Below are positions 29,188 through 64,000 of a DNA stretch of 64,000 nucleotides, piece after piece; position 1 is the first letter of the stretch, and each line of letters opens with the position of its first letter. Below the pieces are notes generated by a model that saw only the letters and a list, made by a program, of their open reading frames with translations, ran no database searches and was not told the origin of the DNA. A program made the translations under genes and the position numbers. Source of the stretch: Elusimicrobia bacterium RIFCSPLOWO2_02_FULL_39_32 (GTDB lineage: Bacteria; Elusimicrobiota; Elusimicrobia; 2-02-FULL-39-32). The stretch spans positions 310,001-374,000 of the forward strand of contig MGUU01000016.1 in NCBI GenBank assembly GCA_001800135.1, read 5' to 3'.

Positions 29188-29296
29188 TTTTTCCTCTTTA
29201 CAACTACAATTTCCTTTCTTGGATTTTAAATGGGGGTATAATTCCAACGCGCATGTTCCGGAGAGTGGAACAATACGATCATTCCCCTAGTTGAAC

Positions 29297-39800: not shown

Positions 39801-42800
39801 GCTCTAATCTTTCTTCCCCATCTCTAACTATAGGATAAGCTCGTCCTTTAGGCGGCAAGCGCAATTCATAACCAAAACTGCCGTCTGACTTTTTCCCCCA
39901 AATAATTCGATGCCCTAACTCTCCAACATAATGGTCTCTCCTGCCAACAGACTTGCCAAACATGGCGGCTCCAATGCCTTGCAATCCGATTTTGACAAAA
40001 GTAGCTTCTCTGGTTACTTTTTTTATAGTTTTATTTTTTTTGTATCCAGAAACTTCAGCCAATAAACTGTTTACAACTTCAATGGACAGGATCGCGTTAA
40101 AACCATAACTATCTTTAAGGATGCCGAACAATTTTGAACTTAAATCCACTCCTCCATCCTGCACATAAGAAGGATCTTCAAAATCTTGAGGCCTAAAATA
40201 CTTAATATTATGGCTAAACACTTTTCTTTTACTTTTAACATGTCCTGACCACGCGATCTTTAAATTATGTATTTGATTCTTGGCTCTAGTTGTATCCATG
40301 TTTCTAGCTTTGGCAAACTCTTCCACTAAAGAATTGATTTCTTTCATTAAATAATAATAGACGAAAGTTCTAGCAGCCTCTGAATTTTTAATTTTCTTTC
40401 TTAAAATCTCTTTTTCTATTTCAGACCATAAGATAGATTTCCTTCCGGAAAAATCTTTTTCACGCAAAAAACCAGTTTGATCTAAAAGAGCGATCTCTAT
40501 TTCTTTGCTGCCGATGCTTAGAGCGATCTGGATTTCCTGCTGTTCAGGGATAAAAGCCAATAAACGATTCTCCTTGTTTTCATAAATTCTGCTGACTTTG
40601 ATTTTTCTAGGGATCATGGCCTTTTGAACTCCGCTCACTAAAAAATCCTCATTCATCAGCTCTCCAAGCGCAAATTCTTCTCCCCCTGCAAACAAATAAA
40701 TATTATTTTTAAATTCTTTGTCTGGAGTAGAATAACCATCCACAAAAGCCCTGAGCGCTTTTCCTAAATCCCCTGCAATTACTCGCAAAAATTGAATGGC
40801 GCGAGGATCTTTTGCTTTTAACTGTTGGCTGATCATTTTAAAAGTATTTTCTATCGCAGCCGGTTCACCTTTTTTTATTTTTTTTTGTTCAAAAAGCAAT
40901 CTAAAATTTTCCGGAACAGCCTGTCTCCCGCGATCAATTAACTCTTTCCTCTTGCTTTCATTTAAATTGACTTCCATAATTCCTATATCCTGTGTTTCTA
41001 TAGAAATCTCATTCCAATCTTGAGACTGCCTTTGGGCATTAATATCATGACTTTTAACTCTGGCAGCCAGCATGTCTAAAATAGTAGAACCTGTATCATT
41101 TAATTTAACCATCCAGTGAGTATCACCTAAGAAAATTTTTGCCACCTCATCTACCAGATCAGCATTCGATAAACCCAAAACAACGGTATCCTCCTCCTCT
41201 CCTTTAAAAATATCTATAGGACGGTTGCTTACAATCCCTCCGTCAGAAAAATAGTGTAAATCTCCATTGATTCGTATTGTGGGAGGGCGGTAGAAATAAG
41301 GAAAACTTGCGCTGGCTCTTACTGCTTTATAAACCTCAACTTCAGGGCTGTTTTTAGCGTTAAAAATAAAACGATCCCGGGTGGTAAGATCAGTAGCCAC
41401 AATATTTAAATCAATGCCCTGATCTAACAAATCTTGAAAAGTTGGATCTTTAATTTGGCCTGTGGATTCCGTATATTTTTCAAATATTATGTTTCTAACC
41501 CAATTTTCAAAATGAGTTCCTTCATAAAGTCCGGCTTGAGTGCTGAGCTTTAATTTACTTAAAATACCTGTAAACCATGTAGGACGAGACTTTCCATCTG
41601 TAAAAATACGAGGGTCAGTCTGTTCCATAATTTTTTCTAATTGTTTACCGGTATATCCCACAGCCAAAAAAGCAGCGCCTATGGCGCCTACAGAGGTTCC
41701 AGAAAAAGCTTTGAATCTAAATCCTTGCTTTTCTAACTCCTTAATTGCGCCAATATGAGCTAAACCTCTTACGCCTCCGCCTTCCAACACTAAATTTACA
41801 TACCTCACCCCGCCTAGTAATTCATCAAAATGAGTTCTTAAAGGCTGAGTACCCCTTATCAATAACGGCTGTGTTCCTTGAGTTCCTACCAGATCACCTG
41901 TGCCTCGATTCCTTTGCAGGGGTTGAGGATCAGGTTCTGCTGCTGCTCCTCCTCCTGCTCCTAAATTATTACCTGTTTCTGCATCTAAATCCGCTATTCC
42001 GGGCAAAAATCGTTCTCTTAATTCAATTTTTGCCAACTCCACTCCAGGCAAAGCCTCTATGGAATTTTCCAATTTTTTAACATCCACACCTTCAGGAACC
42101 TCTATATCCATGCTAAATTGAAGTTTTTCTCCGCTCGCTTTTCTAAGCCCGCTTCGGACCATTTTCATCCTAATTCTAAAAACAAGCTCTTCCCTCTCTA
42201 TTCTTTCTGTATCTGCCCTATTTGAATTTTCCAGATCACCATCTTCTCCTTCAGGGTTCTGAAGACTCTTTTCTATGATTGTTGTAAAACTAAGCCCTTT
42301 AACATTTATACCTACTTCTCCGGTTTTTTCAGTAATGTCATAAACTAAACCATTGCGATCAGAAGCGATCACATTTAACTTTCCTCTTTGTTTATTCAAG
42401 GCTCTATATTTAAGCCACTGCTCTTGAGTCACTTTAATATTCACTAAATTCTGAATCATTTCTGAAATAAGCGATTGAGTATCATGCGTCCCACGGAGAT
42501 GTTCGCCAGTTAATTGGAGAGTGATAATCTCATGACCTTGATTAGTTGTTTTAGTATGAATATCCACAATATTTCCGCAGGACCAAGTAATCCCGGCAAT
42601 TTGATGTAAGATACCTGGAATACTGTAATGCACTTTTATCACTAATTTTACCCTATGGTTATCGGAAGATTTATCGTAAGAGATGTTGTAATTCATTACT
42701 TCTATTGGCTCTTCAACCTTTAGATCCTTAATCCTTTGATTTACATTATAAAGATGAGAATTGGGCTGAAGGTTCATTTCTGGTTTAGTAAAATAAAGTT

Positions 42801-45800
42801 GCGCGCTGGAACGCTTGAATGGATCTTCAGGCGGAAGACTATTCCGATCTATGGGCCAAATAGAGCCAGTTTTCTCGTCAAATTTAAGCAAAAAATCCTT
42901 ATTCTCAATAGACTGAAACACCGCTTGAAAATTACTCTTAAAATCATTGCTCATTTGGACTCCAACATAGCTAAACTCTGGCCTGGTCCTTAATTCCATT
43001 TTAATCTCTTCTAAACGCTGCAACAATTTATAAAGCCAATGCGCGTTTTCTCCGCTCTCTCCTCTTAAAAAATCTGGTTGAGTCATTAACTTAATTTCTA
43101 TTCCGCCAAACTTGATATTGGTATAGACAAATTTTCCATCTTCCTTTTCTTTTCTTTTTACTTCCCATGCTCTATCTTCATCCACAGCCAATCCTATGTG
43201 AGCATGAGTAGGATCTAAAGTTCTCTTCCATTCTTTAACTCCAGGCTCTTTTCTATTCTCTCTTAAATTGATTTTATATTCACTGCTAGACCATGCTTTA
43301 TCCAAAGATTCCTGATCTGGAAACACAATCGCAACCCCAAGAAGATCACTCACCAAAATTCCTTTTATTGGATCTTTGGGCAATCCACCTTTACGGATCA
43401 CTTTATTAATGGTTTGAGGAGCTCCTTTAGGCCGCACCAAAACCTGAAGATAAGGAATCTCTCGCTCTTTTAAATAATTCTCAACATTCTTCTTCATGAT
43501 CTCAGCGTCTGCAACTTGCATAACTCTTAAGAACTTTTCATAATCCTCCTTGCCAATGATCTTAATTAAAGATGCGATTAAAAGCTCTGAAGCGATATCC
43601 TCTCTTAAAACTCTATCCGCAAGCGTTGCCCAGATCAGACGAATCTGCATCTGTATGTTGCTGGTGATTCTCTCGCTTTCTTCTTCCGGCGCTGTTTCTA
43701 ATGCATATAAACGATCTGCTAAAACCAAAAGCAAAGACTCTGGATCTCCAACCATTTTTAGGCTAAGGTCAATCTGATTCATTAGAGCGTCAGAAGGGCC
43801 TTTAACATCAATTGGAAAATCATAAGGAATCTGATTAACAGATCGCAAACGGTTTAAGCGTTCTACAATCTCATTTAAATCCTGATCTTTTAGTTCAAAA
43901 AAATCCACGCCTTTCATTTCCCGATTAATTAAACGTTTTATGCTTTCAGCGATCTCCTCTTTTGATCTTTCATCTTTAAATTGAATGCCATGCTTTTCCA
44001 ATAAATTGCTAATCCTTTCACTGGATTTAACTGGTTTTTCTTGCACAAGCTCTTTCATTAACTCTACAATAACCTCTTCTTCTTTTTTACCATCTTCCAA
44101 TGCGACTTTTGACTGTAAGAGTTCCTTAATCTTTTTGATGATCCTCTCGGAAAGTTTTTCTGTAGTTAATGAAACCGCTTTTTCTTTAAAATGCGCGTTC
44201 AATAAATCCTCTATTTGTTTTGCAGTCACTGGGCTGTCTTCTGGAAAATGTTTATGCAGCAAGGTAGCAAAAATCGTATTCGCAGAAGCTCCCCAACGGA
44301 AAAGCGAGATACTAAGCTCGCTCGCTTGGTCTTGATCCTCTTTTTTCTCATAAAATATCGTTGCCAGCTCTTTAAAAATTTTAGAGCTCCCTGTTTCCGC
44401 CTCCTGCTTAATCTCTTCCCAATGAAGATTTAATTCTTCAATTCTTCTTTTCTTATTCTCACGCAGCTCCTCTGGATTTCCAACCTCATCCTCCCCATGA
44501 GTGGATTCTGCCAGCGTTGTCCCATCCTCTAGCAATGACAAAATAGGAACGGATTGTGGCAATACTTCTACAGAATAAGCCAGATCAACTATTTCCGGCA
44601 TCTCCATCATTGGTTTTAATCTTCTCAGCAAATTCATCCAATAGACTAAAGGTAGGTAACGATCCATGGTCTCGCTATAATCTATGTACTTAGAAAAATC
44701 ATTCTGTTCTAAGGAATCTTTAATCAAAGATTCAAGACGATGAAGCGGTTCTGGATGACCTTTTTTCTCTAAGTATTTAATAATCTCGCGAATTCCCTTA
44801 GGAGGTTCTTTAAGCAAATCCTGCTTGCCTGTAATATCCATTGTGATGTATAATCCCTGCTCTCGACGACGCTCATTCTCAGCTATTTTTTTATAATGAC
44901 GCTTAAGTGATTTTTTAACTTCTGCCAAGGCAAGTGTGGCATGTTCATGCAAATTCTCCTGCATATTTTCTCCAACTCCAATTGAAACTCCAGACCCGCC
45001 TAACCCCTGAAAAATACGCGCGTAAGGAAGAGGCAAATTGTTTTCATAAACCCAAAGATTATATTTTTGATGTAATTTAATAGTTGCGGAAGTTGCAATT
45101 TTGACAAGATGCAACATGGGTTTAAAGAAAATTATAAGAATGACAATCCGTAAGAAAAGGTCAGGAACAAAACTAAGCGCTAAGAGCGGAGCAAAAGGGA
45201 GTAAATAAGGCGCTAAAAAGAAAAAGGATAGGAGTGTCAATACAGGCAAATCAATGATTAAAACTTTTACAACTGTTTTTAAAGAACTAAAAATTGACTT
45301 TATAGTCTGCAAACTGACAAAAGATTGAGGTAACGCATCTAACGGCTGGGTAACTCTAATTTTAAAATCTGATGTTAGGGCTTTTTGATAACGGGTTTCT
45401 CTTCTACCTTCAGCTGTTATAGCTACTAGCTGCAAAGGAAAAAAACTGCTTTGGATTGTCTCATTTATAAAATTAATAATTTCTTCTCTTAGTTCTGTTA
45501 GTTTTGTCTGCCAACTTTCACCAGATTTTTTTGCTCTTATAATCCATTTAACAGTTAAAACGCTAAAAGAATATAAAGGGTGAGCTAAGGCAAAGAAGCC
45601 TGTAGCCCAGACAAGCCCTGTCTTCACTAAATCCCAATCCCCTAAAATAAGACCTGCTCCCATGATGAGAAATCCAATAAGAGGAAACACTTTTGTCTCC
45701 CAAATCGGCTCTTTTTCAGTCACAGCAACCTTAAATTCTTCTGATTTTTCCCCGAACTTTTCTTTAAGGCTCAAGAAACGAATTGCTGCAACCCTATTGC

Positions 45801-46596
45801 GCTCAATCTTTAACCTTGAAAGAAAGGAAAATGGAACTCCATTCAAAAACTGTTTATCTTTAACAACCTCTCTGGTTCTGCGTGGATGAAACCCATGCAT
45901 CTGTCGTATGATTTTATTCTGAAAATCTGAGTCTGTAAGAGTATCTAGACGATCTAAAAGCTGCGCAAATTCTTTCTTTAAGCCTCCCATTTTATGAATA
46001 AAATCAGTTAAAGAATTCCTTTGTCTTAACTGACTTTTTGTGTCAATAGGAAGCGCCTGCGGAGATATTCTTTCCTTAGGCAAAGGAGTTTCCAGCTTTA
46101 AAGTTGAAAGAAGCATTCCAAGATTACCTTGACCAGCCATAAGCTGATCCATTTTCCGCATTGTGTTTTGAACTATAAACTCAAACGCTTTCTTTTTTTC
46201 TCCTTTATAAAATCCAATTTTATATTCTTTGTCATTTTTCACAAAAGGCTCGCTAAAAGACAAACCCTTCTTAATTTCTTTAATGATCTTATTAATTTGT
46301 TCCTCAATCTCTTTATCCTTATTTCCAATTTTAAAATCTTCAAGCCTTTCTGCGTACTGATCCAAAGCATGGAAAAATTTCTGAGAATCAAGCCCTGAAT
46401 CTGCGCCAAAATCCAGAGATTCCGCGCTTTCTGATTTTATCCGATTCATGGAGTCCAGATTAATCTTGGATTTGGGAACTCTTTTAGCTTCAGCAAAGGG
46501 AGGCAAAAGTGTGCTAAAAAGCAGAGAGCTTACAACAGTAACTGCCGCTATTTTTAAACAGTTTTGATTTTTTCTTTTTATCCAAAAACTAAACAT
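36859..46596 (-). CDS. Giant exported protein: RelA/SpoT-like module, ACT domains, patatin lipase, ROK-like domain
   Basis: 3,245 residues. Signal peptide 1-37 (MFSFWI...PPFAEA). Two or three membrane segments near 310-370 and 440-510. A RelA/SpoT-like region: degenerate HD half with LLHKHFPEDS (about 770; HD is changed to HK) and LADRLYAL (about 960; H lost), synthetase-like half with RPKGAPQTINKV (about 1060), GIEIKLMT and GENAHWLYKL (about 1185), then two ACT-like domains (about 1325 and 1415). Patatin-like phospholipase: GGGVRGLAHIG (about 1608), GTSVG nucleophile (about 1634), DGG (about 1785), so the Ser/Asp dyad looks intact. ROK/ASKHA-like domain with LSIGSKEIEIALLD (about 2030) and VGELGH (about 2226). 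Hydrophobic segments near 2700 and 2900, then the shared C-terminal module (ISVFDLPLL, about 3052) ending HVQQ. Lipase activity is plausible; (p)ppGpp hydrolysis is unlikely. No clear ribosome site. Confidence 0.92.
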   Translation of the reverse strand: MFSFWIKRKNQNCLKIAAVTVVSSLLFSTLLPPFAEAKRVPKSKINLDSMNRIKSESAESLDFGADSGLDSQKFFHALDQYAERLEDFKIGNKDKEIEEQINKIIKEIKKGLSFSEPFVKNDKEYKIGFYKGEKKKAFEFIVQNTMRKMDQLMAGQGNLGMLLSTLKLETPLPKERISPQALPIDTKSQLRQRNSLTDFIHKMGGLKKEFAQLLDRLDTLTDSDFQNKIIRQMHGFHPRRTREVVKDKQFLNGVPFSFLSRLKIERNRVAAIRFLSLKEKFGEKSEEFKVAVTEKEPIWETKVFPLIGFLIMGAGLILGDWDLVKTGLVWATGFFALAHPLYSFSVLTVKWIIRAKKSGESWQTKLTELREEIINFINETIQSSFFPLQLVAITAEGRRETRYQKALTSDFKIRVTQPLDALPQSFVSLQTIKSIFSSLKTVVKVLIIDLPVLTLLSFFFLAPYLLPFAPLLALSFVPDLFLRIVILIIFFKPMLHLVKIATSATIKLHQKYNLWVYENNLPLPYARIFQGLGGSGVSIGVGENMQENLHEHATLALAEVKKSLKRHYKKIAENERRREQGLYITMDITGKQDLLKEPPKGIREIIKYLEKKGHPEPLHRLESLIKDSLEQNDFSKYIDYSETMDRYLPLVYWMNLLRRLKPMMEMPEIVDLAYSVEVLPQSVPILSLLEDGTTLAESTHGEDEVGNPEELRENKKRRIEELNLHWEEIKQEAETGSSKIFKELATIFYEKKEDQDQASELSISLFRWGASANTIFATLLHKHFPEDSPVTAKQIEDLLNAHFKEKAVSLTTEKLSERIIKKIKELLQSKVALEDGKKEEEVIVELMKELVQEKPVKSSERISNLLEKHGIQFKDERSKEEIAESIKRLINREMKGVDFFELKDQDLNEIVERLNRLRSVNQIPYDFPIDVKGPSDALMNQIDLSLKMVGDPESLLLVLADRLYALETAPEEESERITSNIQMQIRLIWATLADRVLREDIASELLIASLIKIIGKEDYEKFLRVMQVADAEIMKKNVENYLKEREIPYLQVLVRPKGAPQTINKVIRKGGLPKDPIKGILVSDLLGVAIVFPDQESLDKAWSSSEYKINLRENRKEPGVKEWKRTLDPTHAHIGLAVDEDRAWEVKRKEKEDGKFVYTNIKFGGIEIKLMTQPDFLRGESGENAHWLYKLLQRLEEIKMELRTRPEFSYVGVQMSNDFKSNFQAVFQSIENKDFLLKFDEKTGSIWPIDRNSLPPEDPFKRSSAQLYFTKPEMNLQPNSHLYNVNQRIKDLKVEEPIEVMNYNISYDKSSDNHRVKLVIKVHYSIPGILHQIAGITWSCGNIVDIHTKTTNQGHEIITLQLTGEHLRGTHDTQSLISEMIQNLVNIKVTQEQWLKYRALNKQRGKLNVIASDRNGLVYDITEKTGEVGINVKGLSFTTIIEKSLQNPEGEDGDLENSNRADTERIEREELVFRIRMKMVRSGLRKASGEKLQFSMDIEVPEGVDVKKLENSIEALPGVELAKIELRERFLPGIADLDAETGNNLGAGGGAAAEPDPQPLQRNRGTGDLVGTQGTQPLLIRGTQPLRTHFDELLGGVRYVNLVLEGGGVRGLAHIGAIKELEKQGFRFKAFSGTSVGAIGAAFLAVGYTGKQLEKIMEQTDPRIFTDGKSRPTWFTGILSKLKLSTQAGLYEGTHFENWVRNIIFEKYTESTGQIKDPTFQDLLDQGIDLNIVATDLTTRDRFIFNAKNSPEVEVYKAVRASASFPYFYRPPTIRINGDLHYFSDGGIVSNRPIDIFKGEEEDTVVLGLSNADLVDEVAKIFLGDTHWMVKLNDTGSTILDMLAARVKSHDINAQRQSQDWNEISIETQDIGIMEVNLNESKRKELIDRGRQAVPENFRLLFEQKKIKKGEPAAIENTFKMISQQLKAKDPRAIQFLRVIAGDLGKALRAFVDGYSTPDKEFKNNIYLFAGGEEFALGELMNEDFLVSGVQKAMIPRKIKVSRIYENKENRLLAFIPEQQEIQIALSIGSKEIEIALLDQTGFLREKDFSGRKSILWSEIEKEILRKKIKNSEAARTFVYYYLMKEINSLVEEFAKARNMDTTRAKNQIHNLKIAWSGHVKSKRKVFSHNIKYFRPQDFEDPSYVQDGGVDLSSKLFGILKDSYGFNAILSIEVVNSLLAEVSGYKKNKTIKKVTREATFVKIGLQGIGAAMFGKSVGRRDHYVGELGHRIIWGKKSDGSFGYELRLPPKGRAYPIVRDGEERLEQRLSMQAIALRYLDFIVGGSLKDSNDPIVTSLHQGEAEHFIWMLLQGDFSSEAKAAFNSVLPLVRGFNDEIVIPVTGIYENFTFDVVQTVVSVYPKFVSYFLNAFFERTFSQLRMKANAVPLSAQKIARQLQNEFAMQLKRYPTLGMKTIWPVVMDQTWVTKKEDDSYHYYLAFLTRLMLGESDHALFLLSKKLSLGLASLDRKIRKRMIQALAARELMLHALMRSGLSFQEAHKKIDELAQLFEQEEEYRIKSETRLWEKIRSERMELQIKLMNFLTQPAVGLTKDEAWKAVDHFIYTDQAGLLFFAEKDIAQYDEIMNTIVPKDDREAEELLKLLRSIEERYKNESHYKKMKQELALKNISEAMKFKKILDELDEDYRLAKALFSNAFSGNPDEYEWSKSFPTNFEEYLYFLDYAGRGKFNVNVNKTALIEELFNIAILIDKNPQVYLEFKQLVSRLLPAMNALSQDSIDFSDSIKMVLELKVPTPEEPSSLEVLRELLSQVDAMKEVVEPVKKKEPLDIRHSVFALAASLVLILIWPDSIFPLIWFVSFLALGFSNLIVYLMGNENNGDKVDPFWLNLIRSYYPQVELEIKSSQEMGWRLAYYDSGKNRITLNRGWVRGFDNRAFNFVIHLLILPWMLTQEGGRVWLNQHQIARRTPPILKDFLLYFLKPIQYLYGIVKLVFILRNDIFRFSFLGELSILFRHFAATGHLETELFRGFSFFKDDFNDRSEKFENGTQAIIEQVSKGMGLSYEQIPPEILKPDWVQTVKENIGDRNLRIVISVFDLPLLADKLNEFIQSFEEENGVNVKGAASLQRRKMEENNSGFALKERRMIELVLVQDQGTLNEEEVEGFLRKVRIVSQDLKVAQLYQELTQGKFNFRSLVEKNGLREDSFDLLLFRVKSKNWEGWWSEDSLKVGWDILFKADGKELAGFLKLVKGFASMDLNEISRMKLREGFTHLVEQVEKTGLELKLYHVQQ

Positions 46597-53357: not shown

Positions 53358-56300
53358 TTATTGCTGTCTGGAGAGGAGCTGTTTGGCTTTGGCAAAGAGC
53401 TCAAGATCGCTGGTAATTTCAATCACTTGGGTTTGAGAAACAATCTTTAAAATTCTTATCTGTAAATCTTTTCTTTTTCCTTTCTTAAAAACCATTTTCT
53501 CAGTATAGATGTCTAATGAGCCGACTTCTTTGTCTAGTTTATGAATTACTTTAAATAAAAGATCCAAATCAATGGAGCTGCCTTTAACCTTCTTTAATAC
53601 TTCTACCTCTTCCCTAACAATAATATGAACCCCTTTGAAGGCTAATAATGCGGGACTAATTCCATGAACATTAAGAACTTCAAGCTCCTCTCTAGTTTCC
53701 ACCAAAAGGAAATGAGCTCTTTTCTTTTTACCCTCTTCTATCTGTATGCGAGCAATTTTATTGGCTAAATGAACGTAGCCATTGGCTGAAAGTCCAGAGC
53801 CATAAAATAGTTCTCCGGGAATCTTATTTTTATCTGAAGGAATATTTGGCAGCTGCTCAATTTCATCCATAGAAAGTAGTTTCGAGGTTGAATTTATTTC
53901 AGCTCTTTTTTTGCCTAAATTCCAAATTTTTAAAGCGGCTTTTCTAGAAATTTTATAGGTTTCAAAAGTTTGCTCTATGGCTGCGTAAAGATCATTAAAT
54001 GAAATGTTTACCCCATCTAAATTTAAACCCAAATATTCAGCTTCTCCCCCATGCATCAGTAATCTTATAACTTCCACCTCAAATGAATCTTTCTCTTCTT
54101 GATTCTTAGCCTCATCCAATAGTTTTCTGTAATCTTCTAAAGAGGCGATTTGAACTGCTAATTCTTGCGCCGTTAAATGACCAATAACTGTTGGCAGAGA
54201 AGACAGATCAATGCTCTTTGCTGGGGTTATAGCCTCTGCGCTGGCAGCTCCTAAAGCAGCGGCTAAAGCTAAGACCTTAAGGCTTCTTAAGAAAAGTCTT
54301 CGTTTATCTGGATTTTGGTTGTTGTTTAATAAAGCGTCATACTCTTCTTCTATTTGGCTAAGAGGTTGAATTAAGTTCGGATGCTTTAATTTAGCTTTTG
54401 CTTCTACTTTCTTATACTCATTATCCAAGGTTGATTCTCTCTTATAAAAATCTATGACTAATTGAACCTCATCCATCACAACATTAATAATAATGGCTAG
54501 CAGATTAAATAAACCATGAACAATAGCGCCAATAAAAATCATGGGAAAAGCCAAAACAGGAAATAACCGTTTTACTAAATCAAAAACCTTCCCTTGACTT
54601 TCAGGCGCATAACTTAATCTTACCCCAAGCGCATAAGTCACGATTTCTAACAAAGAGCCTGCTAAATCGCCACCAATATGTTTTAAAGTTCCGCCAGAAT
54701 TTAGGAAATCTAAGCCAAAAGGAAGCCCTATGGCTGTACCAATCATAACTGCGGAAACAAATAAGAATGTGATCCCTAATTGGATTTGTTGAAAAGGGGT
54801 GAGATTTAGCTTTGCTTGGTGCTCTTGAAATAATTTAAAGGCTCTGAATGATTTTAGCGATTCATATGCCCCAGCAAAAAATATATTAATCACTGCGTTA
54901 GGAGCATTTTCCCAACCAAACTTATCCTTAAAAAATTTCCTGCCTTCATAATAGGTTTCTGGAAGTGTGCCAGTTGCTAAACCACGCTTTAAAGAACCTG
55001 TGGTGGGAGTTTTAATTTTTTCCGCAGCCGCAGCTGGAACTGCAAATAATCTTTTATCCAGATTTAAACGACTTAAAAATGTGCTAAAGATGTCGGAAAC
55101 CGTATGCACGGTGATGGGCAGTTTTGTATGAGTTTGTCTTTCAAAATCATGAATTGCTTTAGCGATATCTACAATCAAAATATGATTTTGCGCTGTTCTA
55201 GAATTAATGGAAAGATGTTGAAATATCTTTCCTCTCTCCATGCTATCCATTAAACTATTAAAAGCATTTATTAGTTCTAATTCCGCGGCTTCTGGCATTA
55301 AACCTTTTAAAGCGTGCATGGCTGCTGCTTTTGAAAGTTGCATTTTTAATTGCTCTATGTACTGATCTTTCCTAACAACTTCATCTTCTAAATGTAAATG
55401 TAAAACTAAATCTGCTAAAGGATCTACCAAAAATTTTTTAAGATTTGCATTCTGTTCAATGTTTTTTCCTATAAGCCTAACCATGGAAGGTTTGCCGCTC
55501 TTAAGAGCATCTAACATATTCATTAATTCCCTAAGACCCACGCCTTCTCCAACTCTCTCAGTAAACCAGACCTTATTAAACTGATCAGCTATGGCTTTTG
55601 CATCTGAAATAAAAACAATTTTATAACTCCCTTCTTTTTCTCCAGAGCCTGGAGCCTCCTGATCAATTGCGCCTTCTCCAATTTCTTGAAATGGAAGGTT
55701 ATCAACTAAAGGCAGAGGATAGCCACCCTCTGGAACTAAAGAATCAGCTTCTGAAGCAATGACAGGAACTGCTTCGGGTTTTCTTCCTGGACCAAGAATG
55801 GAGGCAATCACAAGAATAGCAGATACTACAACCACTACTGGCCAGCCCGCAGCCATTAAGCCAGATCCTATAACTTCGCTCCCAGTCAATGTTATGGCAT
55901 GTCCAGCTCCAGCAGAAAAAAGACCAACTAAAATAGCGGTAATTCCTATAGCCATGGTATCGCCAAACCTTTGCTGAACATTTCTTAAAGAATGGCTTGC
56001 CACATGAAAAAGATAAGCGCTGGAAGATGCGGTTAAGATAATTTTACCTATTGCATCCAATCCGCTAAAACCAAATGCGTGAGCGCTAAAGCTTAAGCCA
56101 ACTCCTAAGCCAACCAAAGTTGAAACCTTCATAAAATTTAAAGTTGTTTCTAACCATGCTCTTTGCTCTGCTGTTGGGTTATGAGTTTGGATGAAGCGAT
56201 CTAAAGCATTGCTGCTTAGCATGGCAGGCAATGTTTGGTTTGATTCTAAAAATCCAGAAAAAAATGTGGAGGTAACCCACCACTCTTTAGGAACTTGCAC

Positions 56301-59300
56301 TCCAAAAGTTTCAAAGAAATTCTCTACTGCTTTATAGGTTTTAGGCTGGGTAGCTTGCACCAACACGCTTGTAGAAGGATAATTTTTATCAATGACCGCT
56401 TCATAAAGTCTCCATAAATTTAAAGAAGCTCTTAAATTTTTATTGGGTATGGGAAAATCTTTTAGTTTAAGCGCGCTAAAAGTTTGATTCCCTTCTTTAA
56501 TTGCTTTTTGAAGAGCCTCCCCAATCTTTTTTAATTCACTTAAAGCATCCAGAACCGATTTAGAACCGCGAGAACGCAAAGTGATAATAGAGACTAGATT
56601 CACGATATTGATGACTTCCTCCGCATAATTTAATTTCTCCACATCCAACAATGAATTAATATCTCCCTTTAAACTTAAAATAGGAGCGATATAAGGTTGA
56701 ATAATATTTTTAAGAGAACTCACTTTAGCTTCAGGGCTTTCTTCACTCTTAACTAAATCAGCAATTTGAGAATTAAAATATCTTGATTTAGGATTTAATA
56801 AAGTTCTGGCTATGGTGTCCAAAGGATCCTTAACTTTTGGCTGAGCAAAAGCTGCCCTCTTTGCCGCTGGCTCAAAAGTAACGGATCTAATTCTATCTTG
56901 TTTTGGTCCCTGTTTTGCTTTTTGTTTCTCTTCATCTCTTTCTTTTTTCCACTCCCCAATCCAGCGATTAAATTTGTTCACTAACAACTCTTTTGTTTCT
57001 CTTGCTCCTTTTTTTTCTAAGATTAACTTCCCATCCCTTACTAAATCTCTCTTCTTTATAGCGATCTCTCTTAACACTTCAAACCCTTCTCTGGGGTTTA
57101 AATCCATAAATCTTGAATCAACCTTTATCAGTTCAAGCACAGGCAATAAATCTGCTTCATAATGGTCTGTATTTCCTAATTCCACTAAAATTTCAATAAG
57201 CCCAATCATCTCTTGATCATCCACTCCCGCAATAATCATTGGCTTCTCACTAGCTTGCAGCTCTATAAATTTGCCTATCGCATTCCCTAACACTGGTTTT
57301 GACACTGCTTTAGAAGGAGTTCCCAAAGGAGCAGCTCCAGCTTGTGAAACCGCACTATTTTCTTTTGCCAATTCTTCTTTTATCAATCTTTCAAATAATC
57401 TCCTAACTAAATGTAAATCAGCTTTTGCGCGCAGGTTAATCATAATCCCCAATCCTTGCGCTTCTTTCTCTTGCGCTTCTTTCTCTTGCGCAACTTTTTC
57501 TAAAGTATTAAATACCTTTCTAACTCCTAAAGATTTTAAAGAGGGGGCATAAACTAGGGTGAGTAAAATAAACATTTCATCATAATTAAATGAGCCTCGT
57601 AATCTTGCAACTGTTTGCACAAGTTTCATGATCCTTTCTTGATTAAGCTCTTGTAGAATATCTTCTTTATTCTCTTCCAGATCAAATGGATTTAGATTCA
57701 GATCTAAGTAACCGCTTAAATGTTCAATAAAATCATTGACCAGCTTTAGTTCTAAACGAGCTTGATCTCTAAGCTCTTGGGCGATCAAAATTTTCTGTGG
57801 ATCTGCTTGTAAAACTAAGGTTTGAACCACAGGAGACCGTATCGAATCTCTTAAGGAAGCCGAGGGAACAGCTTGAGAAAGTTCCACCATGGCTAAAAAA
57901 TTAGGATAAGTAGCTTCTGTTTCTATCTCTGCCCAACCGTCTGAAGTTCTATCTCTCACTCCTGATGGAACAAGCCCGGCAATACGATAAAGAAAATTTT
58001 GAATAATTTCTTCTGGACCATAGGATATAGATCCAATTTCCCCGCCTGTCAAATATCTCATGGTAATGGCTATGCCTCTTAAAGCTTCGTAGCAAAGCTT
58101 ATGCGGATTATCTTTTAGTAATCTGGGGTGCTCATCCACAAAATTTAATATTCTTGCAACGTGTTCTGGTTTTAAAAGTGGATCCACCTGATGAATAGCG
58201 CTAATCGCCTGCAAAAGCGCCTGGCGCTCTGATTCTTTATCTTTCCCAGCGGCAGTATAATAACCATGCCACAAACTATTTGAATATGGATTATTTTTGT
58301 TTAATAATCTTAAATAGGAATTAAAAGATTCAATTGGATTTTCTCTTGCCTTTAAAGAGGTAAGAACAAGAGGGTCCTCTGAAATCTTTTCAGTAAAATG
58401 CAAAAGCAAACCATCTTTTAAATTAAGATTCTTTTTAACTTTAACCGCATCTTCTGCTATTTTTCTAAGCAGCTCTAAAGCGATTTCCAAACCTTGATGG
58501 TCACTTAAAATTCTTAACTCTATGCTCCAAAAAATTCTTAAGATCTGACCCATAAACTCACCCACTTCATCAGGTGCAATCGCTTTTTCCATGCCAAGAA
58601 TTCTAATATTGGCAATGCTGGTAACAACTCTTTTTATTTCCGCTAAATGCATGGATCTAAATTCAGGAGGCAGACTCTGCAAATAGGCTGAATCAATATA
58701 TATATCTAGAATTTTACGACTCTCTTCCCAATTTCTTTCCCTAGCCTGTTGATCTGTGCCTTGAACAAATTTCGTAAGAGATTTTTTTCTAGCCTTTCTA
58801 TCTAGCTCATCCTGCTCTTCTATACCTAAATTCTTATTCCCATGATAAACTGCTGAAACAAATACAGTGACTAAAACAGCAAGAATGGAAAGGGGGCCGC
58901 TTGTAAATAATAAAATTAAATGAATGATTGGTATGGCAACTAAAGGGGAACGAGCAGTTTGTGTCGCGGCAAAAATCTTTTCTAAATCCCAAACCACTTT
59001 TTTAGTTTTAGGGTCAACCGCTCCAAATAATAGATGGCCTAGAAATAGACCACCATAAATAATCAAAGGATTTATTATTAAAGATAAAACCACATGGCTA
59101 TAACTTAAGAAATCCGCAGGAGGCACAACTGGCATTAAGCCTGTGTTAATCAGGATAACTACTCCAGCAAGGATGATAAATATATCCTCTAGGAAACCCC
59201 CTGTAGAAAGTCTCCTAAATCCAAAAAATCTATAATCTTGAGGTAAAAAAGACCATACAGCGCCCCATGCTCCGGGGACAAGGGCTAGTTTACTGGTTTG

Positions 59301-62300
59301 TCCTTTGGCTGCTAAAACTTTCTTGATTAAACTGTCTGTTTTTAAAGGAGGAGCATAGCGACCAAAAATAAAAGGGATAAACCTCCCATTTTTGTATTGA
59401 AAAGTCCCGATTTTAACCCCTTCTTTATTGATAATCTCACCCTCATCATTAATTGTGGATTGGTAGAGTTCATCAATATATTTTTTATCCCAACCTTTTT
59501 GCGCCATATTGATTGCAAGCGCGTGTATAATCTCTCCCTTACTCCACTCATTCCTAGAAACTCCTCTAGCCTGTTTAGCCGCCTTAAACGCAGGAATTAA
59601 TTTTCCATCTTGGCTAATAACATTCCCAATTATGTTTCCTTTTTCATCCACTATTGTATTTCTAACAACTCTGGCTCCTCGCAATAATCTCAGTTCAAAA
59701 TCATCTGTAAATTTATAGCCAATGGCCTTTGCATTAGATAGGATCTGAGCAATTAAAGGATTGCTTCCATACAAACTCTGAAGCTCTTTTTGCTTTTTCT
59801 CTATACCTTTTCTTAAAGCCTCTTTTTTAGCTAACCTATCTTTTTCTGCTTTTAAATCAAAAGATTTCATCATGATACCAACCGTAATACCACTGCCTAA
59901 AGCTAATAAAGGAACCCCAATCCAGACATTAAAAAAGGCAACAATCAGACCTATTCCAGCTAAAGCCATGCTGCCAATCATCAGAATAGAACTATATTTT
60001 TCAATGAGCTTATCTAAAACTGTATCTAATTCTGAATAAGCTCCTTTTCCTTTAACCTCGGAAACTTCACTCCCCTGACTCCTCCCTTCCCTATATTGTG
60101 AAACCGCTGCTTCCCAGCCAGAACTAAATTTAGCTTGATCTTGCGCCATTCTACCTACTAGCTCTGCTTCTTCAGCTTCATCTTTCTCATCTACAAACTG
60201 AACAATTCCTAAAGGCACATCTCTTCCACCCTCTTTTTGATCCCCGCTCATCTGAGGAGAGCGGGTAACAATATTTAGCCTTTCTTGAAAAACCGCTGTT
60301 CCTGCTGTTAAAGGAGCAAAAGGATTTTGAAGATTAAATTTCCCATGCTGCCAAACATTTGTAATATAAGATGGAACCAATCCTGCAACAAAAATAGCTC
60401 CTACAACTTTCCAACTAAAACGAAGCAACACATTTAAATCCACAACTTGCGCGCTAAAAAATGGAATGACAAAAAATAAAGCAACTATTAACCCGCCTAT
60501 AACTCCAGCCACAAATGCTTTTTGAGTTGCTTCCACGATTTTTTCAATTCCAGCTCTGCGAACCTCTAATTTTTCTGGAGTATCATTCTCATGCTTTGCT
60601 AAAAACCTTTCCCTCCCCATCTGATTGAAAGGCAATGAGATCCACATAAATTCCGGAGATTCCCACCAACGAGCAAATTTCTGCTCTATCCACTCCTTCT
60701 TCTTAACATCTTTAACAAGACCAAAAAAGGACAATAAATCATAAAATTTCCCGCCCCATACATAGGTGTCTATCCTTGTTAAAGAAGATTTGGACGATTT
60801 TCCCTGCTCTATTGCTAACCAGGATAATGCGTCTGGCTCTTTGACTAAAATTACAGCCTTTTCAATCAGCCCCCTTATCTCTTTCTCAATAGAATCTGAC
60901 AAGGATGAATCCCATCTCTCCGTTTCTGCGTATTTATAACCTAATGTTGGGAGCAGCATATTCAAAACGCTAAGGGTGTTTGTAATTACAAGATCTATGG
61001 GGAGACCTTCCAAAATATCTACAAGATCTTTAGAAAAATTTTCATTTATTGTGGCTGGAATTCCTTCAATTGAGTATGCCCACACATTTGTTTTCTGACT
61101 CTCTGTATACATCTGCTTAGATAAAGTTTCAAGTCCGAAATACTCAAGATCGTTTAATGTTCCCTTATCACGTTCTTTTTGAATCACATGGTGCAACACA
61201 GTCAATGCTTCTAAAATGCGTCTTAAAACCTTACGCCTGTTTCCTAAATTCAAATGAGTCAAAGAACTATGAAGCAAATTTACAACATGGACCAAATAGT
61301 GAAGATAACTTGGTTCTCCAAGAATCCCCTCCTCCCATTCACCCCAAATCAACACTCCAGAACCAAAAGCCGATAAGGGGACATTGAACAAATTTTCATC
61401 TTCGGATCCTGCCTCTACATCCATATCTTTGACCTTATTCATCACTCCAACTTTGGATGGAGAACCAATCCTGCCATGAACAATAGGAGCGACTCTCTCT
61501 CCTTTATCCATCTTTTCTTTAAGGGTTCGCAAACTGCTTTTATCAAGAGCAAACTTCTTTATACTCCCTGTTGCGCTGGGATCAATGACTAAAAGATCTA
61601 AATCAGTTGGCGGAGTTTTTTCTTCACCCCACAAAAAGCTACCGTAAGCGATAATTTTTGCATCTTTAGAGAGATTTAGATTCCCTGCATTTGAGCTCAC
61701 CATATCAGCGATCAAATCAATAGCCCCAGCAATTCTACGCGCGATCAGAAGTTTGTTTTCATAGTTGAGATTGTTCCAGTACCAGTTGTTTCTCTTCTTT
61801 TCAAGTTGCTCTAAGATATGCTCCAGACGTTTCTCTTTTAAGTTAAAATTTTTTCCAGAAAATCTAAATCCATGTACCCTTAAGTCCTGCATGATTTGCT
61901 TAGCTATGTTAAGGGATAATGTACTATCTGAAACAGTCTTTGACTGAGATTGGCCTAAAGGGAGGGTTGCTTTGCCCAAGACGATTTTGCCTTTTGAGCT
62001 CAACTTAAGCCAATCTACAAAAAAGTTGCCGGCAATATGTCCAGCAATTGCGCCTGAAATAATTGCAGCGAGATCAAATTCTTTAGTTGAAAGTTGAAAA
62101 AATTCCATTATTCCAGGCATCACAAAATAGCTGACCACTGAAACAATAGAGACCACAAAAGGAATGGTTAATTTTTGCTGTAAACTCATATCAGGCTGGC
62201 CAAAAATATGCAGGAAAACAAAAATGGAACGAGATATTATTAAACCAATAGGTCCTGTCAAAGCAAATGCAAGTAATGGAACACCAGTAAAAATCAGTTC

Positions 62301-64000
62301 CTCAATAATTGGCATGATCACATTTTCAAAGACTCTGTCGCTAAACCGCAAACCTAGCTTTGAAAGTGCGAATCTTAAAGGATTAGCGAGCCATTGAAGC
62401 ATGCCCTTGCCAACTAAATCCAAAGATCGCGTGGTCAAGACTTCTATTTTTCTGCTAGTTTGTAAGAGAGGTTGACTCTTTTTGCGCGCCGCCACCACCT
62501 CTGCATAAGCAACTAAAAATTCCGGATCCATGAAGAGCTCTCTAAATTTCTCCCCAGGTATCCTATACGCTCCTACCACTCCTTGGGCATAAATGTTTGC
62601 TGTTCTTTTGCCTGTAATGTGCGCCATCTCTCCAAAAAGATCCCCGCTCCTAAGAGTAAATTCCTGTTCAGTTCCTTGCCTTCCTGTAACAAGCGCTTTG
62701 CCTTCTACTAAAATATATACAGGCAATACTCCTTCTTCCTTAATAGAGACAATGGTTTCTCCATTTTCAAATAAAAGAGGCTCTCCTTCATGGCCTTCCA
62801 CAAGATCTGCTGTAGGGTTCTGGTCTAAATAGCGAATAATAGCGTCTAATATCCGCTTTTGATTTTCATCTGATTGTCTTTCTTTAAGAAGAGTTAATTC
62901 CTCAATGTAACTTTTATTTTTGTTCTCCTGTTCATTTTCCTTGCGGCTTTTTTCAGAATAAACTTTTTCAACAACGATTTCCTCTCCATTAAAACTTAAA
63001 CTTTTGTATGCCTTTTGCATCCTGACTAATTGGTAATCTTGCACCTCTTGTGGAATGAGCCTGTTAGAATCATTTAACACAACTTGAACCACCAATTTCC
63101 CATCTCTCTCCAGTACCCTTTGACTCTTTATCATTCCAGCAAAATGAGGAAAATTAGATTCATCAAAGGACTCGATATTATTTAAGATAAAGTCAAAATG
63201 ATCTTGTGATTTTTTAAGAGCTTCTGCTTCTGAAAGAGCTTGGGTTATCTGTAGATATAAAGCATAAGATGTTATCGCTGTTTGCTGTCCAGCCAAAAAG
63301 TTCCTCTTAATTTCATCTACAGCAGCTTTTCCTTGCTCAGCCATTTTTCTTAATAGCGCTATAAAGAAAGGATTATTGTGGTAAGCATAGAGACGTTTAT
63401 GAGCTTCTGCATCCAAATTATCCGCTAATCTAGCTAAAAAGTTAAGAATATCATGCTCCATACTGGCAGCTCTAAATTTATGCACCCCTGAACCCAAGGG
63501 TCCATCTTTTACATGTTCTTCATGATCAGCTCCATGATCCTTAATCACAAGTTTTAGATCTTCTAGCGCGTTGCTGCTTCCCTCACCATTAGGCTGCATA
63601 TTACTTAATCCAAACAGATCATCTAATTGGGAAACTAGGGTTGGTCCAATAACTCCTCCTGTAAGAGGAACATCAGCTAGAGTAACACCAAGATCCGTGT
63701 GGTATCCTTTTCCAGCTTTATAACCACTGACGCCATTGTTCTGTGCTATAAGATTCGCTTCCTCCATGGCTTGAGTTAAAATACCATACCCTATATCATG
63801 CAACCATGCAGATAACAAAGCTAATGATTGTCCAATATTTCCATAAGAATCATCCAAAGCCTTTCTAACGCCAGGAGAGCGAGAGATAATATTTTCTACT
63901 TCTCTTCTTACATTAAGGGAATGTTTAATGCTGTGCGGCACATAGGGAAGACGTAAGTCAGCCTCGTCTTGCAATAACAATAAATGGAAAATCGAGATTA
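53358..64000 (-). CDS. Giant mosaic protein: HD hydrolase, cNMP-binding, CPBP protease and nucleotidyltransferase domains (5' partial)
   Basis: At least 3,546 codons; the frame is open to the right edge, so the true start is outside. Counting from 63980: HD phosphohydrolase with H20, H61-D62 (SAWLHDIGYG) and LADNLDAEA (about 190); cyclic-nucleotide-binding domain about 395-480 (YILVEGKALV, GDLFGEMAHITGKRTA); membrane domain resembling CPBP/CAAX proteases with EELIFTG (about 557), FVFLHI and GHIAGNF (about 645); a pol-beta-type nucleotidyltransferase motif GSFLWGEEK...TDLDLLV (about 777); at least ten further membrane segments; long helical regions; an internal Tat-like signal (RRLFLRSLKVLALAAALGAASAEA in two parts, about 3222-3246); last ~300 residues soluble, ending SRQQ. 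The front end looks like a signalling or protease sensor cassette; the whole is unassigned. Confidence 0.92.
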   Translation of the reverse strand, partial: ISIFHLLLLQDEADLRLPYVPHSIKHSLNVRREVENIISRSPGVRKALDDSYGNIGQSLALLSAWLHDIGYGILTQAMEEANLIAQNNGVSGYKAGKGYHTDLGVTLADVPLTGGVIGPTLVSQLDDLFGLSNMQPNGEGSSNALEDLKLVIKDHGADHEEHVKDGPLGSGVHKFRAASMEHDILNFLARLADNLDAEAHKRLYAYHNNPFFIALLRKMAEQGKAAVDEIKRNFLAGQQTAITSYALYLQITQALSEAEALKKSQDHFDFILNNIESFDESNFPHFAGMIKSQRVLERDGKLVVQVVLNDSNRLIPQEVQDYQLVRMQKAYKSLSFNGEEIVVEKVYSEKSRKENEQENKNKSYIEELTLLKERQSDENQKRILDAIIRYLDQNPTADLVEGHEGEPLLFENGETIVSIKEEGVLPVYILVEGKALVTGRQGTEQEFTLRSGDLFGEMAHITGKRTANIYAQGVVGAYRIPGEKFRELFMDPEFLVAYAEVVAARKKSQPLLQTSRKIEVLTTRSLDLVGKGMLQWLANPLRFALSKLGLRFSDRVFENVIMPIIEELIFTGVPLLAFALTGPIGLIISRSIFVFLHIFGQPDMSLQQKLTIPFVVSIVSVVSYFVMPGIMEFFQLSTKEFDLAAIISGAIAGHIAGNFFVDWLKLSSKGKIVLGKATLPLGQSQSKTVSDSTLSLNIAKQIMQDLRVHGFRFSGKNFNLKEKRLEHILEQLEKKRNNWYWNNLNYENKLLIARRIAGAIDLIADMVSSNAGNLNLSKDAKIIAYGSFLWGEEKTPPTDLDLLVIDPSATGSIKKFALDKSSLRTLKEKMDKGERVAPIVHGRIGSPSKVGVMNKVKDMDVEAGSEDENLFNVPLSAFGSGVLIWGEWEEGILGEPSYLHYLVHVVNLLHSSLTHLNLGNRRKVLRRILEALTVLHHVIQKERDKGTLNDLEYFGLETLSKQMYTESQKTNVWAYSIEGIPATINENFSKDLVDILEGLPIDLVITNTLSVLNMLLPTLGYKYAETERWDSSLSDSIEKEIRGLIEKAVILVKEPDALSWLAIEQGKSSKSSLTRIDTYVWGGKFYDLLSFFGLVKDVKKKEWIEQKFARWWESPEFMWISLPFNQMGRERFLAKHENDTPEKLEVRRAGIEKIVEATQKAFVAGVIGGLIVALFFVIPFFSAQVVDLNVLLRFSWKVVGAIFVAGLVPSYITNVWQHGKFNLQNPFAPLTAGTAVFQERLNIVTRSPQMSGDQKEGGRDVPLGIVQFVDEKDEAEEAELVGRMAQDQAKFSSGWEAAVSQYREGRSQGSEVSEVKGKGAYSELDTVLDKLIEKYSSILMIGSMALAGIGLIVAFFNVWIGVPLLALGSGITVGIMMKSFDLKAEKDRLAKKEALRKGIEKKQKELQSLYGSNPLIAQILSNAKAIGYKFTDDFELRLLRGARVVRNTIVDEKGNIIGNVISQDGKLIPAFKAAKQARGVSRNEWSKGEIIHALAINMAQKGWDKKYIDELYQSTINDEGEIINKEGVKIGTFQYKNGRFIPFIFGRYAPPLKTDSLIKKVLAAKGQTSKLALVPGAWGAVWSFLPQDYRFFGFRRLSTGGFLEDIFIILAGVVILINTGLMPVVPPADFLSYSHVVLSLIINPLIIYGGLFLGHLLFGAVDPKTKKVVWDLEKIFAATQTARSPLVAIPIIHLILLFTSGPLSILAVLVTVFVSAVYHGNKNLGIEEQDELDRKARKKSLTKFVQGTDQQARERNWEESRKILDIYIDSAYLQSLPPEFRSMHLAEIKRVVTSIANIRILGMEKAIAPDEVGEFMGQILRIFWSIELRILSDHQGLEIALELLRKIAEDAVKVKKNLNLKDGLLLHFTEKISEDPLVLTSLKARENPIESFNSYLRLLNKNNPYSNSLWHGYYTAAGKDKESERQALLQAISAIHQVDPLLKPEHVARILNFVDEHPRLLKDNPHKLCYEALRGIAITMRYLTGGEIGSISYGPEEIIQNFLYRIAGLVPSGVRDRTSDGWAEIETEATYPNFLAMVELSQAVPSASLRDSIRSPVVQTLVLQADPQKILIAQELRDQARLELKLVNDFIEHLSGYLDLNLNPFDLEENKEDILQELNQERIMKLVQTVARLRGSFNYDEMFILLTLVYAPSLKSLGVRKVFNTLEKVAQEKEAQEKEAQGLGIMINLRAKADLHLVRRLFERLIKEELAKENSAVSQAGAAPLGTPSKAVSKPVLGNAIGKFIELQASEKPMIIAGVDDQEMIGLIEILVELGNTDHYEADLLPVLELIKVDSRFMDLNPREGFEVLREIAIKKRDLVRDGKLILEKKGARETKELLVNKFNRWIGEWKKERDEEKQKAKQGPKQDRIRSVTFEPAAKRAAFAQPKVKDPLDTIARTLLNPKSRYFNSQIADLVKSEESPEAKVSSLKNIIQPYIAPILSLKGDINSLLDVEKLNYAEEVINIVNLVSIITLRSRGSKSVLDALSELKKIGEALQKAIKEGNQTFSALKLKDFPIPNKNLRASLNLWRLYEAVIDKNYPSTSVLVQATQPKTYKAVENFFETFGVQVPKEWWVTSTFFSGFLESNQTLPAMLSSNALDRFIQTHNPTAEQRAWLETTLNFMKVSTLVGLGVGLSFSAHAFGFSGLDAIGKIILTASSSAYLFHVASHSLRNVQQRFGDTMAIGITAILVGLFSAGAGHAITLTGSEVIGSGLMAAGWPVVVVVSAILVIASILGPGRKPEAVPVIASEADSLVPEGGYPLPLVDNLPFQEIGEGAIDQEAPGSGEKEGSYKIVFISDAKAIADQFNKVWFTERVGEGVGLRELMNMLDALKSGKPSMVRLIGKNIEQNANLKKFLVDPLADLVLHLHLEDEVVRKDQYIEQLKMQLSKAAAMHALKGLMPEAAELELINAFNSLMDSMERGKIFQHLSINSRTAQNHILIVDIAKAIHDFERQTHTKLPITVHTVSDIFSTFLSRLNLDKRLFAVPAAAAEKIKTPTTGSLKRGLATGTLPETYYEGRKFFKDKFGWENAPNAVINIFFAGAYESLKSFRAFKLFQEHQAKLNLTPFQQIQLGITFLFVSAVMIGTAIGLPFGLDFLNSGGTLKHIGGDLAGSLLEIVTYALGVRLSYAPESQGKVFDLVKRLFPVLAFPMIFIGAIVHGLFNLLAIIINVVMDEVQLVIDFYKRESTLDNEYKKVEAKAKLKHPNLIQPLSQIEEEYDALLNNNQNPDKRRLFLRSLKVLALAAALGAASAEAITPAKSIDLSSLPTVIGHLTAQELAVQIASLEDYRKLLDEAKNQEEKDSFEVEVIRLLMHGGEAEYLGLNLDGVNISFNDLYAAIEQTFETYKISRKAALKIWNLGKKRAEINSTSKLLSMDEIEQLPNIPSDKNKIPGELFYGSGLSANGYVHLANKIARIQIEEGKKKRAHFLLVETREELEVLNVHGISPALLAFKGVHIIVREEVEVLKKVKGSSIDLDLLFKVIHKLDKEVGSLDIYTEKMVFKKGKRKDLQIRILKIVSQTQVIEITSDLELFAKAKQLLSRQQ

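Follow-up and report, generated by a model that had tools for sequence, protein, structure and literature searches.

The HD, cyclic nucleotide-binding (cNMP), CPBP-like and nucleotidyltransferase-like (NTase-like) domains reported from this DNA lie on a single giant protein, here called giant ORF A, and with moderate confidence we regard them as parts of an exchangeable core within a riboswitch-controlled, membrane-embedded giant signalling protein. The window (64,000 nucleotides; contig C16:310001-374000) comes from G000, a 2.52-Mb, 97% complete groundwater Elusimicrobia genome.

Extent and domains of the gene

Addition of the neighbouring DNA recovered the missing 5′ end 9 kb beyond the window edge, giving an ORF of 6,540 aa with an ATG start (C16:363358-382980, minus strand). 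In the window it is a single uninterrupted minus-strand frame, from 53358 to 63998 and beyond. All four motif sets fall inside window 61500-64000 and are held by this one open frame, as the earlier note had stated; its placing of them in the first 800 visible residues does not carry over to the full protein, where they start near residue 3,000 of 6,540 and reach to about 3,800. Residue numbers refer to the full protein throughout. The features, in window coordinates, are as follows.

53358..64000, minus strand: in-window part of giant ORF A, continuing to window-equivalent 72980
53358..60692, minus strand: C-terminal scaffold, residues 4097-6540, with hydrophobic segments and ending ...LLSRQQ; identity to the ortholog 85% (protein) and 88.5% (DNA)
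60693..64000 and on to window-equivalent 66195, minus strand: swapped core block, ORF nt 6786-12288, without nucleotide match to the ortholog
61563..61673, minus strand: nucleotidyltransferase-like motif, residues 3770-3806; PF01909 15.1 bits, cut-off 21
62025..62324, minus strand: CPBP/Rce1-like membrane domain, residues 3553-3652; PF02517 24.3 bits, cut-off 22.4
62529..62771, minus strand: cyclic nucleotide-binding domain, residues 3404-3484; PF00027 43 bits
63291..63983, minus strand: HD domain, residues about 3000-3230; HDIG 18.5 bits, PF01966 16.3 bits, ligands invariant in paralog B

The protein begins with a signal-like N-terminus and a region termed the N-cap (residues 1-680), for which no match was found in the PDB. 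A ChaN/Tiki identity for the N-cap came from one member only, as a weak match (E 0.007), and is not relied on. There follow a PP2C phosphatase (residues about 1085-1320; PF00481, 53 bits), a GGDEF module, a second stretch assigned as GGDEF-like by eye alone, the HD, cNMP, CPBP and NTase-like parts, and the C-terminal scaffold. By hydropathy, hydrophobic segments separate the soluble parts.

On sequence grounds, assignment of the cNMP domain is solid: its score exceeds the PF00027 cut-off of 27.5 bits, the phosphate cassette includes the previously noted GDLFGE core (at 3446) together with KRTAN at 3458, and in the PDB the domain resembles the PKA regulatory subunit and SthK. The H/HD/D residues described as intact are likewise present (H3016/H3020, H3061-D3062, H3094, H3149, and D3187), and alignment of the catalytic residues reveals that every metal ligand is invariant in a paralogous giant, B, to which the HD block is 54% identical; this identity, with all ligands kept, argues that the block is more than a chance resemblance. 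Both profiles fall below their curated cut-offs (16.3 versus 22 bits in Pfam, 18.5 versus 27.6 for HDIG), and the domain is therefore called HD-like by its residues only. The presence of a PKA/SthK-type cNMP domain and an HD domain on one chain agrees with the suggestion that signalling-type domains are combined here.

The remaining two assignments survive in part. The CPBP domain passes its cut-off on a tight segment (17.8 bits on the long chain) and possesses EE 3560-3561, H3591, and H3648/N3652; in the EExxxR motif, which reads EELIFT, both Glu residues are kept and Arg is replaced by Thr, and protease activity is not claimed. The pol-beta NTase retains its motif (GS 3780-3781, DLD 3793-3795), and with an NTP_transf_2 (PF01909) match under the cut-off its identity is only suggestive. 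GlnD-like proteins join an NTase and an HD domain on one chain, and DUF294-like proteins a cNMP domain and an NTase, in both cases at ordinary length and in another domain order; since the NTase match here is sub-threshold, membership in neither group is claimed. A predicted structure of the HD-to-NTase block, built from two sequences only, was too poor for use (pLDDT 34), and a PDB sequence search with HD and NTase returned no credible relative. In paralog B the FGE of the cNMP domain is lost, and the CPBP and NTase parts fail to align to giant ORF A.

Judging from a structural model, the likelier nucleotide maker of giant ORF A is the GGDEF module, which is situated at residues 2270-2560, upstream of the HD domain and outside the window. 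It possesses SGGDEF at 2366-2371 and the metal-binding residues D2305/D2307, and G-x-D-E is invariant across six homologous modules. With E values of up to 10 allowed, Pfam assigned the tight segment to no family. The six homologous modules together gave an AlphaFold model (pLDDT 73) that matched GGDEF domains in Foldseek with a probability of 1.00 and TM of 0.61-0.73, and the rows shown by VIA-align were GGDEF proteins, the best being DosC, with Z 15.3 and an rmsd of 2.5 across 157 residues; at the level of the model, the fold of a divergent GGDEF domain is thus confirmed. The module shares this fold, the metal Asp and GGDE with DosC, PleD, and GacA (canonical and Hypr GGDEF proteins), from which it differs in lying below Pfam detection and within giant chains that reach 13,470 aa; it is a putative cyclase. 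Among 294 genomes of the phylum, its homologs were found in long ORFs only; the shortest, of 1,047 aa, lies at a contig end, and the others span 1,847-13,472 aa. Motif alignment reveals that the Asp position governing diguanylate cyclase specificity is N in giant ORF A and S/T/G in its relatives, GGDE or GADE being kept; in neither GacA nor giant ORF A is the GacA-type position 348 an Asp. Hypr GGDEF enzymes, in which the specificity position is changed likewise, can make cGAMP (PMC6456294), and because of this shared replacement the product of the module may differ from the ligand of the riboswitch.

The proposal that HD, cNMP, CPBP and NTase form a functional cassette of their own is not supported: the NTase is weak, the GGDEF module is the likelier maker, none of the other genomes searched had the same domain order, and the block is absent from the sister ortholog. 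Nor were the four parts found elsewhere in the genome of the sister species, G001. Relatives might instead have carried independent short genes, as the earlier note had considered, and no stand-alone short homologs of HD and NTase were found in the 294 genomes. A hint at defence can be made specific as a CBASS-like sensor in which a single chain would unite cyclase, sensor and effector; an NTase-like motif accompanied on the chain by cNMP and CPBP-like domains would suit it. We consider this highly improbable. No PADLOC model matched the window part of the gene, the two matches upstream of it are marginal (E above 0.002), the NTase is sub-threshold, no defence genes were recognised beside the gene, and the gene is one of some 21 related giants whose enzymes vary.

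Core exchange between sister species

The ortholog of giant ORF A in G001 encodes 5,781 aa. DNA identity between the two is 88.65% to ORF position 6785, nil inside the block, and 88.47% from 12289 to the end; the corresponding protein identities on the two sides of the core are 87% and 85%. The 5.5-kb core of giant ORF A holds the GGDEF, HD, cNMP, CPBP and NTase-like parts, and the sister ortholog, from which this whole block is absent, has in its place an unrelated 3.1-kb block with a kinase-like segment and another GGDEF. The sole similarity inside the core is 28% between the two GGDEF modules. The kinase-like assignment, made by eye, concerns the segment MPKDIHAGNFIL...IDLGE; at 32% it aligns with residues 4020-4331 of paralog B, near the ABC1 kinase match of that protein. 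By this comparison the four-domain order is private to G000, since the core was replaced in the ortholog between flanks that are 88-89% identical, the scaffold, cap and riboswitch being conserved. In a further giant, C, there is a block of about 1,450 aa that its own ortholog lacks. A foreign origin of the core was considered on the basis of composition and set aside, its GC being the same as that of the flanks; codon-distance figures, with few counts behind them, were disregarded.

Both genomes are metagenome assemblies, and some G001 copies of these genes are broken, which would fit an assembly artefact or a decaying fusion of unrelated genes. To this explanation we give almost no credence: the frame stays open for 6,540 codons in one assembly and 5,781 in the other, dN/dS in the flanks is 0.11-0.23, GC does not differ between core and flanks, and a paralog of the HD block exists elsewhere in G000. 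We favour a core that would be a replaceable block within a giant scaffold, with a constant N-terminal cap and a presumably membrane-crossing scaffold common to giant ORF A and its ortholog. In G000 this core would comprise a GGDEF domain probably making a cyclic dinucleotide, a putative HD hydrolase, a cyclic nucleotide sensor, a CPBP-like membrane domain and a weak NTase-like part, and in the sister species a kinase-like domain and a different GGDEF; the probable task of such a core is to produce, detect or remove nucleotide messengers.

The riboswitch and its predicted switching logic

Giant ORF A is preceded by a c-di-GMP-I riboswitch (RF01051; 73.6 bits, cut-off 35), the aptamer of which ends 102 nt ahead of the ATG and is followed by a terminator with a U-tract (-17.3 kcal/mol). 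The aptamer strand CTACAAGACT perfectly complements AGTCTTGTAG of the terminator arm over 10 nt, and a complement as long occurred in 12 of 2,000 dinucleotide shuffles. This pairing is part of the minimum-energy fold and is unchanged in the G001 ortholog. Because an aptamer segment pairs with the terminator arm, the predicted direction is OFF: binding of c-di-GMP would fold the aptamer, the folded aptamer would free the terminator arm, and transcription would stop, such that high c-di-GMP is expected to turn the gene off. The encoded cyclase would then feed back on its own riboswitch. Counting against the OFF reading is Bc2, a well-studied c-di-GMP-I switch that precedes the collagen adhesion protein, a surface protein, of Bacillus thuringiensis (PMC4933901). 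Both leaders combine RF01051, an intrinsic terminator and a large gene; whereas Bc2 has been shown experimentally to be an ON switch (PMC4933901), the pairing in giant ORF A predicts OFF and its gene encodes a GGDEF domain.

Other giants vary in this respect. In giant D (G000:C25:147871-158703) a different aptamer strand, TAAGGGCAAA, complements the terminator arm (49 of 2,000 shuffles), and in giant C a 9-nt match is not significant (434 of 2,000). In paralog B and several G001 giants the ATG is located a few nucleotides past the aptamer and no terminator is evident, from which we surmise that control there may be translational. Giant D, itself riboswitch-preceded, also contains a SLOG/LSDAT nucleotide-sensor domain (113 bits).

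The family of giants and its meaning

G000 encodes about 21 N-cap giants of 2,033-13,470 aa, which together come to some 125,000 aa and take up close to 15% of the genome. When named genomes were scanned for the N-terminal module of giant ORF A, it turned up mainly in Elusimicrobia, many of them from groundwater, and then in Omnitrophota. An Omnitrophota host was considered and rejected, the sister genome being an Elusimicrobia MAG. Six c-di-GMP-I aptamers were found in G000, one of them under the family cut-off, and four of the six precede N-cap giants (6,540, 6,992, 13,470, and 3,610 aa), an association with a chance of about 1e-7 for about 21 giants among an assumed 2,000 genes. Seven of the ten aptamers in G001 precede N-cap genes, some of which are broken or cut by contig ends, and the riboswitch also lies ahead of an N-cap gene at two further loci, in the MAGs JACPSV and nzgw210. 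The other N-cap loci scanned in Elusimicrobia and Omnitrophota possess no riboswitch at the gathering threshold.

Several individual loci may be recorded here. The 13,470-aa protein is a single ORF behind its riboswitch (G000:C16:113629-154041), with a GGDEF module near the C-terminus. The window itself contains two further N-cap giants, one of 11,471 aa that runs out of the window (1-21263) and one of 2,298 aa with a UDPGP domain (22351-29247), for neither of which was a riboswitch detected in the window; a 3,245-aa ORF at 36859-46596, with a patatin phospholipase and a sub-threshold HD_4, ends in VQQ and is without an N-cap. Two G000 aptamers before non-giant genes (C13:58655-58783 and C13:100263-100339) read AGC where the consensus is GGC. 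An A at that place (position 20 by our reading) marks cGAMP-type GEMM-Ib riboswitches in Geobacter, and a Bacillus c-di-GMP switch may likewise have A at the same position.

The C-termini of the giants are also alike. Directly before the stop codon, [QNS][AQ] is found in 19 of the 20 N-cap giants read in G000 and in 3 of 105 small genes (Fisher p 2e-18, a value that overstates the case since the motif was defined on the same giants and some tails are near-copies). The tails seen are IQQ, IQA, QQQ, SSA, INA, and FQA, that of giant ORF A being at window 53358-53420; the G001 giants agree with this ending, and several Omnitrophota N-cap ORFs end in TAA or SAA. Our guess is that this tag could be a sorting or proteolytic processing signal.

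Giant proteins of Elusimicrobiota and Omnitrophota have already been published (PMC11573180, PMC10066038, PMC12057145) and, as far as the accessible text of these papers goes, resemble giant ORF A in being encoded by single ORFs of great length, with several hydrophobic segments and few domains that can be recognised. They are there connected with adhesion or predation; that text mentions neither a riboswitch nor a C-terminal tag, nor the exchange of a core on a conserved scaffold, and, in contrast to these proteins, the core of giant ORF A carries nucleotide-signalling domains. Giant ORF A might itself be a surface or envelope protein for attachment or predation, with a core that is largely structural or decayed and signalling not its main role. 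Its signal-like N-terminus and many hydrophobic segments would fit, as would the attachment or predation proposed for Omnitrophota giants (PMC10066038, PMC12057145). In other families of the class Elusimicrobia, moreover, the same riboswitch class is often ahead of outer-membrane-type proteins and, at several of the loci, ahead of repeat-rich giants about 6,000 aa long. We judge this unlikely, as the GGDEF, cNMP and HD domains keep their key residues and are normally cytosolic, and Pfam found no adhesin or carbohydrate-binding domain in the chain. As a separate observation, five genomes (G003, G010, G047, G049, and G057; loci L041, L051, L061, L063, and L070) show a c-di-GMP-I riboswitch, a short gene and then a repeat-rich ORF, and these ORFs are of about 5,800-6,400 aa and mutually related.

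Beyond the reading of giant ORF A as a signalling protein with an exchangeable core, it is possible, and we propose it tentatively, that these genes form a lineage-specific set of polymorphic giants, with a constant cap and scaffold, a C-terminal [QNS][AQ] sorting or processing tag, in-frame cores exchanged between sister species and making or sensing cyclic dinucleotides, and a subset under cyclic-dinucleotide riboswitches. In the literature searched, with preprints outside the search, nothing was found that joins Omnitrophota with c-di-GMP riboswitches or that describes giant genes controlled by such riboswitches; papers on Elusimicrobia and riboswitches were, judged by title, on other subjects; and nothing was found on c-di-GMP riboswitch control, core swapping or the shared [QNS][AQ] C-terminus of Elusimicrobia giants.

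The functions of the giants of Elusimicrobia and Omnitrophota are poorly understood. A readable riboswitch terminator gives an indication of when some of them are produced and of the messenger to seek, and a GGDEF domain with a confirmed fold provides a first testable activity for such proteins. The exchange of cores on a conserved scaffold suggests that the giants are platforms for exchangeable modules, and, should the C-terminal tag that they have in common be a signal, it would point to a single route of export, anchoring or processing used by all of them.
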